Below are positions 5,452-10,199 of a DNA stretch of 40,894 nucleotides, one piece after another (the stretch's first letter is position 1; each line of letters begins with the position of its first letter). Location of the stretch: positions 1 through 40,894 of the forward strand of contig JACYME010000169.1 in NCBI GenBank assembly GCA_015272155.1, in the 5' to 3' direction. The position numbers and the translations under genes were made by a program. The DNA is from Leptolyngbyaceae cyanobacterium T60_A2020_046 (GTDB taxonomy: Bacteria; Cyanobacteriota; Cyanobacteriia; Phormidesmidales; Phormidesmidaceae). The notes beneath the pieces were generated by a model. That model did no database searches. It was not told the origin of the DNA and worked only from the letters and a program-made list of their open reading frames with translations.

Positions 5452-5760
5452 ATGCCCATTGCGGTAGGAATGATTGAGACGAAAGGGTTTCCGGCTGTTG
5501 TCGAAGCAGCTGATGCCATGGTAAAAGCGGCTCGTGTGACCCTGGTTGGCTACGAGAAGATTGGGAGTGGCCGCGTCACCGTGATCGTGCGGGGTGACGT
5601 GTCTGAGGTGCAAGCGTCTGTTGCGGCGGGCATTGAGTCCGCAAAGCGCGTGAATGGTGGCGAGGTGCTTTCGACCCACATCATTGCCCGTCCCCACGAA
5701 AACCTGGAATTTGTCCTGCCGATTCGCTACACCGAGGCGGTTGAACAGTTCCGGACTTAG
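5452..5760 (+). CDS. ccmK2: Carboxysome shell protein CcmK2 (hexameric BMC-H)
   Basis: A 102-residue single BMC-domain protein that assembles as hexamers to form the flat facets of the beta-carboxysome shell. The core is nearly invariant relative to known CcmK2: [20 protein letters not shown] at residues 13-32, the pore loop KIGSGR and the PHENLE stretch. It ends right after EQFRT, as CcmK2 does, whereas the next gene has the longer CcmK1-type tail. A GGGAG ribosome site precedes the ATG. It is the first gene of the cluster, in the same order as the Synechocystis ccmK2-K1-L-M-N cluster. Confidence 0.96.
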
Positions 5761-5916: not shown

Positions 5917-6255
5917 ATGGCAATTGCCGTTGGAATGATCGAAACCCTGGGCTTCCCCGCTGTGGTTGAAGCGGCGGACGCAATGGTGAAGGCAGCTCGC
6001 GTCACCCTGGTTGGCTACGAGAAGATCGGAAGTGGTCGCGTCACCGTCATCGTGCGGGGCGATGTGTCCGAGGTTCAGGCTTCCGTCGCCGCTGGGGTTG
6101 ACAACGTGAAGCGCGTGAATGGTGGGCAGGTGCTCTCAACTCACATCATTGCCCGCCCCCACGAAAACCTGGAGTTTGTGCTTCCCATTCGCTACACCGA
6201 AGCCGTTGAGCAGTTCCGTGAGAGCGTGAGCGGCATTCGCCCTTACGGTCGCTAG
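5917..6255 (+). CDS. ccmK1: Carboxysome shell protein CcmK1 (hexameric BMC-H)
   Basis: A 112-residue BMC-domain shell protein nearly identical to the preceding CcmK2 through residue 98. It carries a basic C-terminal extension ([11 protein letters not shown]), the feature that separates CcmK1 from CcmK2. It contributes hexamers to the shell facets, with the KIGSGR pore loop present. An AAGGAG ribosome site lies 8 bases before the ATG. The 156-bp gap after ccmK2 shows no clear terminator. Many codons differ synonymously between the two genes, so the protein identity reflects strong selection rather than a recent copy. Confidence 0.96.
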
Positions 6256-6268
6256 GTCGCTGCTATCC

Positions 6269-6571
6269 ATGCTATTGGCTAAGGTTCGCGGAACGGTTGT
6301 GAGTACGTGTAAAGAGCCCAGTCTCAACGGCGTCAAGTTTTTACTGGTGCAGTTGTTGAGTGACTCGGGCGATCCCCTGCCGGATTACGAGGTGGCAGCG
6401 GATGTGGTTGGCGCAGGTATCGGTGAGTGGGTATTGATTGCCCGTGGCAGCGGGGCGCGGCAGCACGAAGGCTATCGCGATCGCCCCGTTGATGCGGCGG
6501 TTGTCGCCATCATCGATACCGTCTCCCTCGATTCCGGGGCTCTTTACAACAAGCGCGACGACTTTAGCTAG
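6269..6571 (+). CDS. ccmL: Carboxysome vertex protein CcmL (BMC-P)
   Basis: A 100-residue EutN/CcmL-family protein that forms pentamers capping the twelve vertices of the carboxysome shell. It shows the family features: LAKVRGTVVST at the start, YEVAADVVGAGIGEWVLIARGSGAR in the centre and the closing IDTV...LYNKRDD. It begins 13 bp after ccmK1, so the two are co-transcribed. The ribosome site is weak, as suits a protein needed in far fewer copies than CcmK. Confidence 0.96.
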   Translation: MLLAKVRGTVVSTCKEPSLNGVKFLLVQLLSDSGDPLPDYEVAADVVGAGIGEWVLIARGSGARQHEGYRDRPVDAAVVAIIDTVSLDSGALYNKRDDFS

Positions 6572-6712: not shown

Positions 6713-8704
6713 ATGGCGACCCGCAGTATCGCGGCTCCGCCAACCCTGGGGCCACAAACTTGGGCAAGACCTGCTATTGAGACTTCTGCTGACGTACGTG
6801 CCCTGTCTCAGATGATGGGGAACGTCCGGGTTGGGACTGGGGCAATCATTGCACCCGGAGCGCTGATTCAGGCAGAGGCAGATGCTCTCTTCTCGGTTGG
6901 TGCAGGAAGTCTCATCCAAGGTAGTGCAGTGGTGCAGGGCTCGGCTCATGGTCGAGTGTTGGGCGACGACGACCAGCCCTACTCCATTTGGATTGGGGCA
7001 GAGGTTTGCATTACGCACAAGGTTGTTGTTCAAGGCCCTGCCTACATCGGCGATCGCTGTTTTATCGGCTTTCGCTCCACGATTTTTAATGCTCGTCTTG
7101 GCAAGGGATGCGTCGTCATGATGCATGCCCTTGTTCAGGATGTCGAAATTCCAGCGGGACGATTTGTCCCATCGGGGTCGGTGATTAGTCGCCAAGAGCA
7201 GGCAGATGCCTTGCCCAAGGTTCAGCCTGAGGACTTGGCCTTCGTGCAAGATGTGGTCACTGCTAGCCGGGCCTCAGGTGCCCAATATGGCACCGCATCG
7301 GTCGGGGTTTCCTCCCCAGCGATGTCTGAGTCGCGCGATCGCCCCCCCTCAGTTCCGAGCAGTCACGACAACGGATCACGAACCATGCAACCTCACAAAC
7401 TAACCCCTGATATCGTGCAGCAGGTGCGACAGCTCTTGAGTCAGGGCTATCGAATTGGTACTGAGCACGCTGATAGCCGCCGCTACCGCAGCAACGTGTG
7501 GCAAACCTGCACCCCGGTGCAATCCACCCGTGAGCCAGAGGTGCTCGGGGCATTAGAAGCTTGCCTAGAGGAACATGCGGGTGAGTATGTGCGTATGTTT
7601 GGGATTGACCCCGTCGCCAAGTGCCGGGTCGCAACTACCACCATTCAGCGCCCTGATGGCAAACCCGTCCATGTTCAAAAGACCGCCGTCGCTGCCGCAG
7701 GGACATCGAGCCACAGCCCCGCAACTCCGAGCGATAACGGCAACGACGCAGGACTATCTCAGCATGTTCGTCAACTCCTGAACCAGGGGTGTCGAGTTGG
7801 CATTGAATATGCTGACCCACGCCGCTATCGCAGCAATGTGTGGCAAACCTGCACCCCGGTTAGTTCTACCCGCGAAGCCGATGTGCTGGCCGCTGTGCAA
7901 CAATGCCTCGCTGAACATGCGGGCGACTATGTGCGCATTTTTGGGATTGACGCCAATAAGCACCGCGTTCAAGCCACTACGATTCAGCGTCCTGATGGCA
8001 AGCCCATGAGTGCTGCGGGCGGTGCTGTCGGAAGCGGCCCCGCTGTTCCCGTTCATGCTGGTCACACAGCCCCAGGGGGTGGCCTGACCCCGGAGGTCAT
8101 GGATCAGGTGCGGCAGTTTTTGCGCCAGGGTTACCAAATTGGTACTGAACATGCTGATCAGCGCCGTTATCGCAGTAATGTGTGGCAAACCTGCACCCCA
8201 ATTCAGGCCAAAAGTGAGGGAGAGGTGTTTGCCGCGCTGCACCGTTGTCTGGCAGATCATGCAGGGGAATATGTGCGATTGTTTGGCATTGACCCGGCAG
8301 CAAAGCGACGGTTAGCTCCGGTCACGATTCAGCATCCCAACGGCAGTGCGCCGCAGGTTGCAGCCCCGAGTCGTGCCGCTGCATCCCCTTCATCGCCTTC
8401 ATCGCACAATGGATCGGCTCGGTCCGCAGTCGGAGGATCTGCCTCCCTAGGGAACGATGTGGTGCAGCAGGTGCAGCAGTTGGTTGGCCAAGGCTATCGC
8501 ATCAGCCTAGAACATGCTGATGTGCGTCGCTATCGCAGTGGCGTCTGGCAAACTAGCGGAATGATTGAGGGGCGCGGGTCTTCTGATGTGCTAGCAGCCC
8601 TTGAGGCGGGCTTGCGGGCCCATGCTGGGGAGTATGTGCGGCTTGTCGGGATTGATCCCCAGGCCAAGCGTCGCGTCCTTGAAACGACGATTCAGCGTCC
8701 GTAG
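6713..8704 (+). CDS. ccmM: Carboxysome assembly scaffold CcmM (gamma-CA-like domain plus four SSUL domains)
   Basis: A 663-residue scaffold that gathers Rubisco during carboxysome assembly. Residues about 30-190 form a left-handed beta-helix of the gamma-carbonic anhydrase family. Four Rubisco-small-subunit-like (SSUL) repeats follow at about 230-314, 346-430, 456-545 and 578-663, each with an RRYRS.VWQT motif. The first three SSULs carry a cysteine pair (WQTCTP and a later C); the last has none. The zinc ligands normally His-His-His are Q75, H102 and Q107, and the activating cysteine pair after the helix is absent, so this domain is probably not an active anhydrase. M225, just before SSUL1, could be an internal start giving a short CcmM35-type form, but its ribosome site is weak. 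Confidence 0.96.
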   Translation: MATRSIAAPPTLGPQTWARPAIETSADVRALSQMMGNVRVGTGAIIAPGALIQAEADALFSVGAGSLIQGSAVVQGSAHGRVLGDDDQPYSIWIGAEVCITHKVVVQGPAYIGDRCFIGFRSTIFNARLGKGCVVMMHALVQDVEIPAGRFVPSGSVISRQEQADALPKVQPEDLAFVQDVVTASRASGAQYGTASVGVSSPAMSESRDRPPSVPSSHDNGSRTMQPHKLTPDIVQQVRQLLSQGYRIGTEHADSRRYRSNVWQTCTPVQSTREPEVLGALEACLEEHAGEYVRMFGIDPVAKCRVATTTIQRPDGKPVHVQKTAVAAAGTSSHSPATPSDNGNDAGLSQHVRQLLNQGCRVGIEYADPRRYRSNVWQTCTPVSSTREADVLAAVQQCLAEHAGDYVRIFGIDANKHRVQATTIQRPDGKPMSAAGGAVGSGPAVPVHAGHTAPGGGLTPEVMDQVRQFLRQGYQIGTEHADQRRYRSNVWQTCTPIQAKSEGEVFAALHRCLADHAGEYVRLFGIDPAAKRRLAPVTIQHPNGSAPQVAAPSRAAASPSSPSSHNGSARSAVGGSASLGNDVVQQVQQLVGQGYRISLEHADVRRYRSGVWQTSGMIEGRGSSDVLAALEAGLRAHAGEYVRLVGIDPQAKRRVLETTIQRP

Positions 8705-8709
8705 TTCCC

Positions 8710-9252
8710 GTGAGCAGGCTGATGCCTCGGCACGATTCAACAGTGACATCAGCGGCATTTGAGGTCTGGGGGGATGTGGTCATTGCTCCGAGTGCTGCGA
8801 TCGCGTCTGGAGTCGTGCTAGAGGCCAGCCCTGGAACCCGGCTCATCATTCAGGCAGGGGTGTGCATTGGGGCTGGTGCTGTGGTGCAGTCTCTCTGGGG
8901 CGACCTCGTTTTAGCAGAGGGGGTCAACCTGGGATCTGGCGTGCTGGTGTTAGGGCACGGCACTGTCGGCACGCAGACCTGCGTTGGAGCGGAGAGTACG
9001 GTCATTAACCCCAACCTCGCTGCTGGGGAAATTGTGGCAGCGCGATCGCTCCTTGGGGATCCAAGTTCTCTGCCCAGCCCATCTAGGGAAGGTGGAGCGG
9101 CAGCGGCGGCAGCGGAATCTGATGTGGCAGAATCTGCCGAAGTGACAACCGTTGAGGAAGGGGCGATCGCCCACCACACAGTAATTTATGGCCGTGACCA
9201 AGTCACCCAACTGATTCAAACCCTGTTTCCTCATCGGCGATCCCTGTCCTAA
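8710..9252 (+). CDS. ccmN: Carboxysome assembly protein CcmN
   Basis: A 180-residue adaptor joining the CcmM/Rubisco core to the shell. Residues about 15-115 are hexapeptide (left-handed beta-helix) repeats. An Ala/Glu-rich linker near residues 120-160 leads to a C-terminal encapsulation peptide, VIYGRDQVTQLIQTLFPHR, the amphipathic helix that binds CcmK. The start is either the GTG at 8710 or the ATG at 8722 four codons later; neither has a strong ribosome site. It lies 5 bp after ccmM and is probably coupled to it. Confidence 0.94.
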   Translation: MSRLMPRHDSTVTSAAFEVWGDVVIAPSAAIASGVVLEASPGTRLIIQAGVCIGAGAVVQSLWGDLVLAEGVNLGSGVLVLGHGTVGTQTCVGAESTVINPNLAAGEIVAARSLLGDPSSLPSPSREGGAAAAAAESDVAESAEVTTVEEGAIAHHTVIYGRDQVTQLIQTLFPHRRSLS

Positions 9253-9356: not shown

Positions 9357-10199
9357 ATGACGGCCAATCTAGACCTCTCCGCTCGCCAGTCTGCCCATCG
9401 TCCGCCCACACGCTGGGCCAGTAAGCTACAGGGGGCAGCCCTGGGGATGGTCTCTGTGCAAAGCTTTCCGGCAGTTGTGGGGACTGCGGACGCGATGTTG
9501 AAATCGGCAGATGTGACGCTGATTGGCTACGAAAAAACGGGCTCAGGTCAGTGTACTGCGATCGTGCGCGGGGGCGTTGCAGATGTGCGCATGGCCGTTG
9601 AGGCTGGGAAGCAGACTGCTACCCAGTTCGGTCAGTTTATTGCGTCATCGCTCATTCCGCGACCACTCCCGAACCTAGAGGCCGTGCTGCCTATCTGTGC
9701 CCACTTGGATGAGTTGGAGCGGATCGGCCGGGGACGAATGGGCAACCAAGCGATCGGCCTGCTCGAAACGCGTGGATTTCCTGCCATGGTCGGGGCTGCG
9801 GATGCCATGACCAAGGCCGCAGACGTGAAGGTGGTGGCGCATCAGACAATTGGGGATGGCCTGTGTACCGTCATCATTCGCGGCTCCTTGCCGAATGTGG
9901 CGATCGCGGTCGAAGCTGGTATGCACGAGGCCGAGCGCATCGGCGAGCTTCACGCCGTGATGGTGATCCCACGGCCTTTGGACGACCTTGAGCACTCCCT
10001 GCCGATGGCGCAGGAAGAACCGGTCGAGCAGCCGGTGCGCCTGCCACTGAAGCTCGAAGAAAAACAAAAGGAACTGATGCCCGTGGCCGAAGTCGCCGAA
10101 GCCGAAATTGCGAAGGAAATGGCTTTGCCCGAGCCCGATGTTCGTCCAGCAGTGCCTATCAATCTTCCAGAACCCTTGACCGAAGAGTCCTTCGACTAG
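9357..10199 (+). CDS. ccmO: Carboxysome shell protein CcmO (tandem BMC domains)
   Basis: A 280-residue protein with two BMC domains in tandem, about 29-115 and 130-213. It has a 28-residue N-terminal extension and an acidic, proline-containing tail from 214 that looks disordered. Tandem-BMC CcmO forms pseudohexameric trimers at facets or edges and is required for shell closure in Synechococcus elongatus. A GACGAGG ribosome site precedes the ATG by 6 bases. The 104-bp gap after ccmN contains TTGACC and TACAAT, but 20 bp apart, so a separate promoter is only possible. Its 3' end overlaps convergent miaA by 4 bp. Confidence 0.95.
   Translation: MTANLDLSARQSAHRPPTRWASKLQGAALGMVSVQSFPAVVGTADAMLKSADVTLIGYEKTGSGQCTAIVRGGVADVRMAVEAGKQTATQFGQFIASSLIPRPLPNLEAVLPICAHLDELERIGRGRMGNQAIGLLETRGFPAMVGAADAMTKAADVKVVAHQTIGDGLCTVIIRGSLPNVAIAVEAGMHEAERIGELHAVMVIPRPLDDLEHSLPMAQEEPVEQPVRLPLKLEEKQKELMPVAEVAEAEIAKEMALPEPDVRPAVPINLPEPLTEESFD

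Follow-up and report, generated by a model that had tools for sequence, protein, structure and literature searches.

A CcmM from a Leptolyngbyaceae cyanobacterium whose gamma-CA-type domain has lost two zinc ligands and is probably a docking hub for CcaA

In cyanobacteria possessing the anhydrase CcaA, the gamma-carbonic anhydrase (gamma-CA) type domain of CcmM has been described as mostly inactive and structural (PMC13249358, PMC9120777, PMC5472144). Synechocystis PCC 6803 is reported to have a CcmM with a non-functional gamma-CA and to use CcaA as its carboxysomal anhydrase (PMC5472144, PMC13249358), and Thermosynechococcus elongatus is described as having a Cys194-Cys200 switch and no CcaA (PMC13249358). 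For Synechococcus elongatus PCC 7942, the CcmM domain is said to have lost its motifs for CA activity, and CcaA is reported to dock onto it by a C-terminal peptide, the last 17 residues of CcaA (GWLAPEQQQRIYRGNAS), with F123, N124, R126, D141, E143, Q159 and D163 as the docking residues on the CcmM side (PMC8580825). The same source gives R164 as required for the head-to-head pairing of trimers and describes an internal start in ccmM that gives a short form of the protein (PMC8580825).

The window analysed here, a stretch of 40,894 nucleotides from Leptolyngbyaceae cyanobacterium T60_A2020_046 (contig JACYME010000169.1), encodes a CcmM within a carboxysome locus in the order ccmK-ccmK-ccmL, ccmM, ccmN-ccmO, the gene thus being encoded together with ccmK, ccmL and ccmN (Table 1). 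The assignment is based on a score of 690 bits against NCBIfam NF053794 (cut-off 550) and on four PF00101 stretches, and the product has the fusion of a gamma-CA-type N-terminal domain to SSUL modules that defines the CcmM family.

Table 1. Features of the carboxysome locus, with positions counted from the first nucleotide of the window.
Feature	Positions	Strand	Basis or remark
ccmK-type shell protein (BMC domain)	5452..5760	+	PF00936
Second ccmK-type shell protein (BMC domain)	5917..6255	+	PF00936
ccmL pentamer shell protein	6269..6571	+	PF03319
CcmM ORF	6713..8704	+	ATG start, 663 aa; gamma-CA-type N-terminal domain and four SSUL modules
gamma-CA-type domain of CcmM	6713..7285	+	phmmer to 3kwc, E 7e-61; active-site positions kept 2/9
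Codon 75, CAG (Gln); zinc ligand His75 lost	6935..6937	+	Alignment to 3kwc and codon reading
Codon 102, CAC (His); zinc ligand retained	7016..7018	+	Alignment to 3kwc and codon reading
Codon 107, CAA (Gln); zinc ligand His107 lost	7031..7033	+	Alignment to 3kwc and codon reading
Residues 190-205, equivalent of the T. elongatus Cys194/Cys200 stretch; without Cys	7280..7327	+	
In-frame ATG (codon 225) 5' of the first SSUL; candidate internal start of a short CcmM form	7385..7387	+	
SSUL module 1 (residues 226-316)	7388..7660	+	PF00101; boundaries by eye
SSUL module 2 (residues 351-441)	7763..8035	+	PF00101; boundaries by eye
SSUL module 3 (residues 460-550)	8090..8362	+	PF00101; boundaries by eye
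SSUL module 4 (residues 572-663)	8426..8701	+	PF00101; boundaries by eye
ccmN adaptor	8710..9252	+	NF053793, 114 bits (cut-off 100)
ccmO-type tandem BMC protein	9357..10199	+	Two PF00936 stretches

Residues 1-194 of the window CcmM aligned without gaps and at a constant offset to the T. elongatus CcmM structure (PDB 3kwc), so that the window numbering equals the Thermosynechococcus numbering. An initial annotation of this DNA had claimed that two of the three zinc histidines are lost and that the activating C-terminal cysteine pair is absent, and both statements were borne out by the alignment and the codons. Instead of the three histidine ligands of an active gamma-CA, the domain has Q75, H102 and Q107, corresponding to the substitutions H75Q and H107Q with H102 kept. 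The redox cysteine pair that follows the domain in active enzymes is likewise missing, as no cysteine was found in the Cys194/Cys200 region; within residues 1-225 cysteines occur at positions 99, 116 and 133 only, and there are none between 133 and 266. The changes extend beyond the ligands to the residues that surround the metal in active gamma-CAs (R53, D55, E56, N67, Q69 and D70), of which five are replaced (R53Q, D55E, E56A, N67L and D70G). Seven of the nine scored active-site positions (53, 55, 56, 67, 69, 70, 75, 102 and 107; labelled from the T. elongatus sequence and from general knowledge of Cam) are therefore changed, and Q69 and H102 alone are retained. It is very unlikely that the ligand loss stems from chance or sequencing error, because it is accompanied by the five further changes, lies in an open frame of 663 codons and has counterparts at the same positions in other full-length CcmMs of the family. 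An AlphaFold model of the domain (30 aligned loci) was poor, with a mean pLDDT of 67 and a TM-score of 0.33 to its best PDB match, again 3kwc, and was set aside as evidence.

A scaffold without catalysis would need a separate carboxysomal anhydrase, and the initial annotation had predicted one such as CcaA, encoded outside the window. The search for ccaA confirmed this: no copy is present in the window, and the genome assembly (4.2 Mb, 250 contigs, estimated 99.86% complete) has one CcaA-type beta-CA gene, on contig C17, whose product is the single beta-CA above the Pfam cut-off; here and throughout, CcaA was called by similarity, not by function. The reading (G000:C17:4971-5732) comprises 254 aa with the motifs CSDSR and GHTHCGA, and its C-terminus, LSRQQSERIYRGSAAR, contains SERIYRG. 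A separate CcaA with a C-terminal docking peptide of the 7942 type is thus found in this genome, lacking the Trp that precedes the docking peptide in the 7942 protein. The corresponding reading at L301:4968-5732 begins with TTG inside an open frame of 279 codons, and this start is a candidate. Other CA-like genes in the genome encode a 202-aa hexapeptide protein and an alpha-CA. The frame of the latter (L303:2541-3377, on the 4.4-kb contig C249) is joined at its start to the initial portion of a gene for ATP-synthase subunit c, and a full-length c-subunit gene is found on C78; the contig is a likely misjoin, or otherwise an odd fusion, and the alpha-CA was left unused.

The docking pocket for the CcaA peptide is conserved in the window CcmM, where all seven docking residues known from 7942 are kept (F125, N126, R128, D143, E145, Q161 and D165). 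The pair R164-D172, a contact for the head-to-head trimers of 7942 that may not be general, reads A166 and D174 in the window, and the Ala at 166 means that not every scaffold contact is retained. Codon 166 (Ala) is located at positions 7208-7210 of the window; in the survey described below, R166 is kept in 48 of 50 CcmMs from genomes without CcaA, in 55 of 100 with CcaA and an HHH triad, and in 13 of 51 that have lost the triad. With all seven scored docking residues kept, the domain looks like a pseudo-enzyme maintained as a docking hub. The earlier proposal that it serves only as a scaffold is supported at the sequence level by the replacement of two ligands and five further active-site residues and by the absence of the activating cysteines, set beside the complete docking face, and we estimate a probability of about 0.87 that the domain is catalytically dead and works as a docking hub, with CcaA as the anhydrase.

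The state of the CcmM site was surveyed in 63 genomes of the GTDB family of the window and 195 of its class, with a full-length CcmM present in 209 genomes. Twenty-six of the 195 class genomes had no CcmM match and were unscored, many of those listed being small genomes of one family (f2) and presumably, judged by their size, alpha-cyanobacteria. The counts leave out six genomes with a short or fragmentary beta-CA match ("mid") and four of ambiguous CcaA status (G021, G056, G063 and G072, with G063 included there though 97% complete); rows with gaps were dropped for single features, and 23 genomes that were not among the matches listed in the CcaA search were counted as being without CcaA. An intact CcmM site is associated with the absence of CcaA across these genomes. 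The cysteine pair was found in all 50 full-length CcmMs from genomes without CcaA versus 42 of 149 from genomes with it, the six catalytic positions were intact in 49/49 versus 44/147, and the triad was intact in 49/50 versus 100/148. Outside the family of the window, the corresponding values were 50/50 versus 35/92 for the cysteine pair and 49/49 versus 41/91 for the catalytic positions, and the difference in the triad was not significant (49/50 versus 82/91; p 0.10).

At least one ligand was lost in 52 full-length CcmMs. The most frequent triad states among them were YHQ (14), YYQ (9), HHQ and EHH (5 each), QHH (4) and HHN (3), followed by QHQ, HHY, NHQ and EHR (2 each) and by RHY, QPQ, QCY and GHY (1 each). 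The cysteine pair was retained in only two of the 52 (G026 and G088), which suggests that the cysteine switch is lost before the ligands. When the aligned positions of this set were compared with the reference letters, active-site positions matched in 178 of 467 cells (38%) and docking positions in 331 of 363 (91%), with a value of 79% (2289 of 2906) for a set of 56 further positions showing little variation in genomes without CcaA. Two exceptions combine an altered triad with the lack of a CcaA match, namely G088 (L233; HHY; 8% contaminated) and G063 (L080; YHQ; 97% complete), each perhaps reflecting an assembly gap. G041, which is without a full-length CcmM, has an SSUL stretch at a contig start and was set aside as a likely assembly gap. 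The g13 genomes of the family (L110, L120, L121, L122, L123, L125 and L126) have Glu at position 75 and a wholly altered active site; their CcmMs reach about 900 aa, and in four of these seven genomes the CcmM has five SSUL modules.

Phylogeny weakens the association between CcaA and the state of the site, the surveyed genomes not being independent. In a tree of 227 rows, from which seven were left out (a duplicate of the window row and six partial domains), a sign test of CcaA against cysteine loss had only two starred independent pairs that differ in CcaA; the direction is as predicted but not significant, and with only two supported pairs no significance is claimed. Fourteen pairs differ in CcaA when unsupported branches are allowed. 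A second tree, built from 68 full-length domains after removal of the trait columns, required at least four changes of triad state in or around the family of the window. The window row was nearest by path to L004 and L070 (support 87/59, long end branch), both of which have an intact HHH triad and cysteine pair although CcaA is present. As its nearest sampled relatives are intact, the loss in the window looks separate and is probably, though not certainly, an event of its own.

Several other explanations of the altered site were weighed. The possibility raised by the initial annotation that other histidines occupy the zinc positions was not supported. His79 and His138 are the only further histidines in the domain (His218 is located in the linker, outside it), His138 is an invariant alignment column, and His79 was rejected as a replacement ligand because L004, the closest sampled relative, has it alongside an intact His75. 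More broadly, a rebuilt site could be envisaged in which a metal is held by His102 and either Gln75/Gln107 or the additional His79, yielding a weak or altered anhydrase; His102 is indeed retained, and Gln might in principle ligate weakly. We nevertheless consider such a site quite improbable, as His79 is shared with a relative that keeps His75, and five of the surrounding catalytic residues are also altered. Furthermore, other full-length CcmMs have Gln, Tyr, Asn, Glu, Arg or Gly at position 75 and Gln, Tyr, Asn or Arg at position 107, and this spread of letters, combined with the altered surroundings of the metal, is in line with decay rather than with one new site.

The retention of the whole domain length in the open frame of 663 codons, and the general knowledge that pseudo-enzymes can retain binding pockets, would also agree with a pseudo-site that has taken on a new ligand-binding role, e.g. 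sensing bicarbonate or another carboxysome metabolite. A shared ligand predicts a new conserved pattern, however, and none was seen among the many triad states, while the pocket is kept in a share of the triad-lost cells (38%) that falls under the value for other hardly varying positions (79%); this role is very improbable. Scarcely credible is the idea that this copy is in decay or was damaged in assembly, with an active CcmM encoded at another place in the genome. The assembly is a draft in 250 contigs, but its estimated completeness is 99.86%, the gene has an open frame and four SSULs and is flanked by ccmL and ccmN, and the only other CcmM-like match in the genome is the 202-aa hexapeptide protein, with 30% identity.

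Twenty-two genomes carry short CcmM paralogues consisting of a gamma-CA domain and one SSUL, 24 copies in all, of which 16 belong to the family of the window and 8 lie elsewhere; all 24 have the HHH triad and the cysteine pair. A full-length partner was found in 21 of these genomes and had lost at least one scored feature in 20 of them and the triad in nine. The 50 genomes without CcaA yielded no short CcmM, and neither did the genome of the window when it was searched for CcmM-like proteins. Satellites with a single SSLD have been reported for Leptolyngbya, Acaryochloris, Microcoleus and Rubidibacter, the last being described as having a satellite without CcaA (PMC5853843), which speaks against a strict link between the two. 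In 14 short-ccmM contexts (L287-L300), the neighbouring genes were of the types HisI (11), COG0523/CobW GTPase (7), CysRS (6), GTP cyclohydrolase I (5) and ThrRS (4), each type having been checked with Pfam on one representative. Over these contexts, of which the one around the short ccmM at L287:7876-8811 is an example, Zur-like boxes accompany the HisI, COG0523, FolE, CysRS and ThrRS genes near the satellite. The 15-bp Zur box used for scanning was TGATAATNATTATCA, known from work on Anabaena, and up to two mismatches were allowed within 1.5 kb upstream. Among the 21 short genes for which 1300 or more bases of upstream DNA were available, 17 were preceded by a Zur-like box, versus 5 of 103 full-length ccmM genes and 0.1 expected in shuffles; over all short-ccmM loci the count was 18 of 24. 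Zur regulons have been reported to hold genes of the kinds HisI, CysRS, ThrRS and COG0523 and a gamma-class Cam (PMC2770081).

Judged from these sequence contexts, the satellite CcmM appears to be a carboxysome-directed reserve anhydrase for times of zinc starvation. A wider division of labour, to which we give even odds, would be that in the presence of CcaA the main CcmM can become a pure docking hub and gamma-CA catalysis persists in a Zur-induced satellite, perhaps with another metal, when zinc is too scarce for CcaA. The organism of the window would then have kept neither an active main CcmM nor a satellite and would rely on zinc-fed CcaA alone. A zinc link of the satellite CcmM was not found in the literature searched, and such a division of labour seems unreported; a similar idea has been put forward for Zur-regulated Cam in proteobacteria (PMC2770081).

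If the window CcmM is a docking hub, its gamma-CA fold would no longer form a three-histidine metal site and would have lost activity. The domain, presumably a trimer, would collect CcaA via the C-terminal peptide of the latter and RuBisCO via the four SSUL modules into the carboxysome, and CcaA, encoded on another contig, would provide the carboxysomal CO2. Catalysis by CcmM may then be under little or no selection, and in the lineages examined the survey suggests a path of loss that probably led from the redox cysteine pair to the residues around the metal and then to the ligands, with the docking face spared. At the level of sequence, the window CcmM is a clear example of an enzymatic domain that has become a docking scaffold, and the enzyme that replaces it is encoded, docking signal included, by the same genome. 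The pattern of site decay helps to tell from sequence which cyanobacterial carboxysomes depend on CcaA, and the intact site of the satellites linked to zinc starvation suggests that zinc supply shapes carboxysomal CO2 production.

Compared to the described systems, the active CcmM of T. elongatus (PDB 3kwc) has the same domain as the window protein but with His75, His102 and His107 in place of Gln, His and Gln. The single-SSUL satellites share with the window CcmM a paralogous gamma-CA domain joined to SSUL and differ in having the triad and the cysteine pair intact, one SSUL and zinc-response neighbours. Plant mitochondrial complex I contains gamma-CA-like subunits, gamma-CA folds without some of the zinc ligands that have a structural role; these belong to another organelle and complex, and related chains were among the weaker matches of the phmmer search. 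The CcmM of Synechocystis PCC 6803 resembles that of the window by its published description. The gamma-CA-like domain of S. elongatus PCC 7942 (gammaCAL; PDB 7o4z, 7o54 and 7d6c) is likewise part of a CcmM scaffold paired with a separate CcaA, yet it has all three histidines and R164, whereas the window CcmM has lost two of the histidines and the equivalent of R164. As the 7942 domain is described as lacking the activity motifs despite its three histidines, loss of the triad is not required for loss of activity. A release of CcmM from catalysis by CcaA has already been proposed in the literature, and the window CcmM is a new and extreme member of this known pattern.
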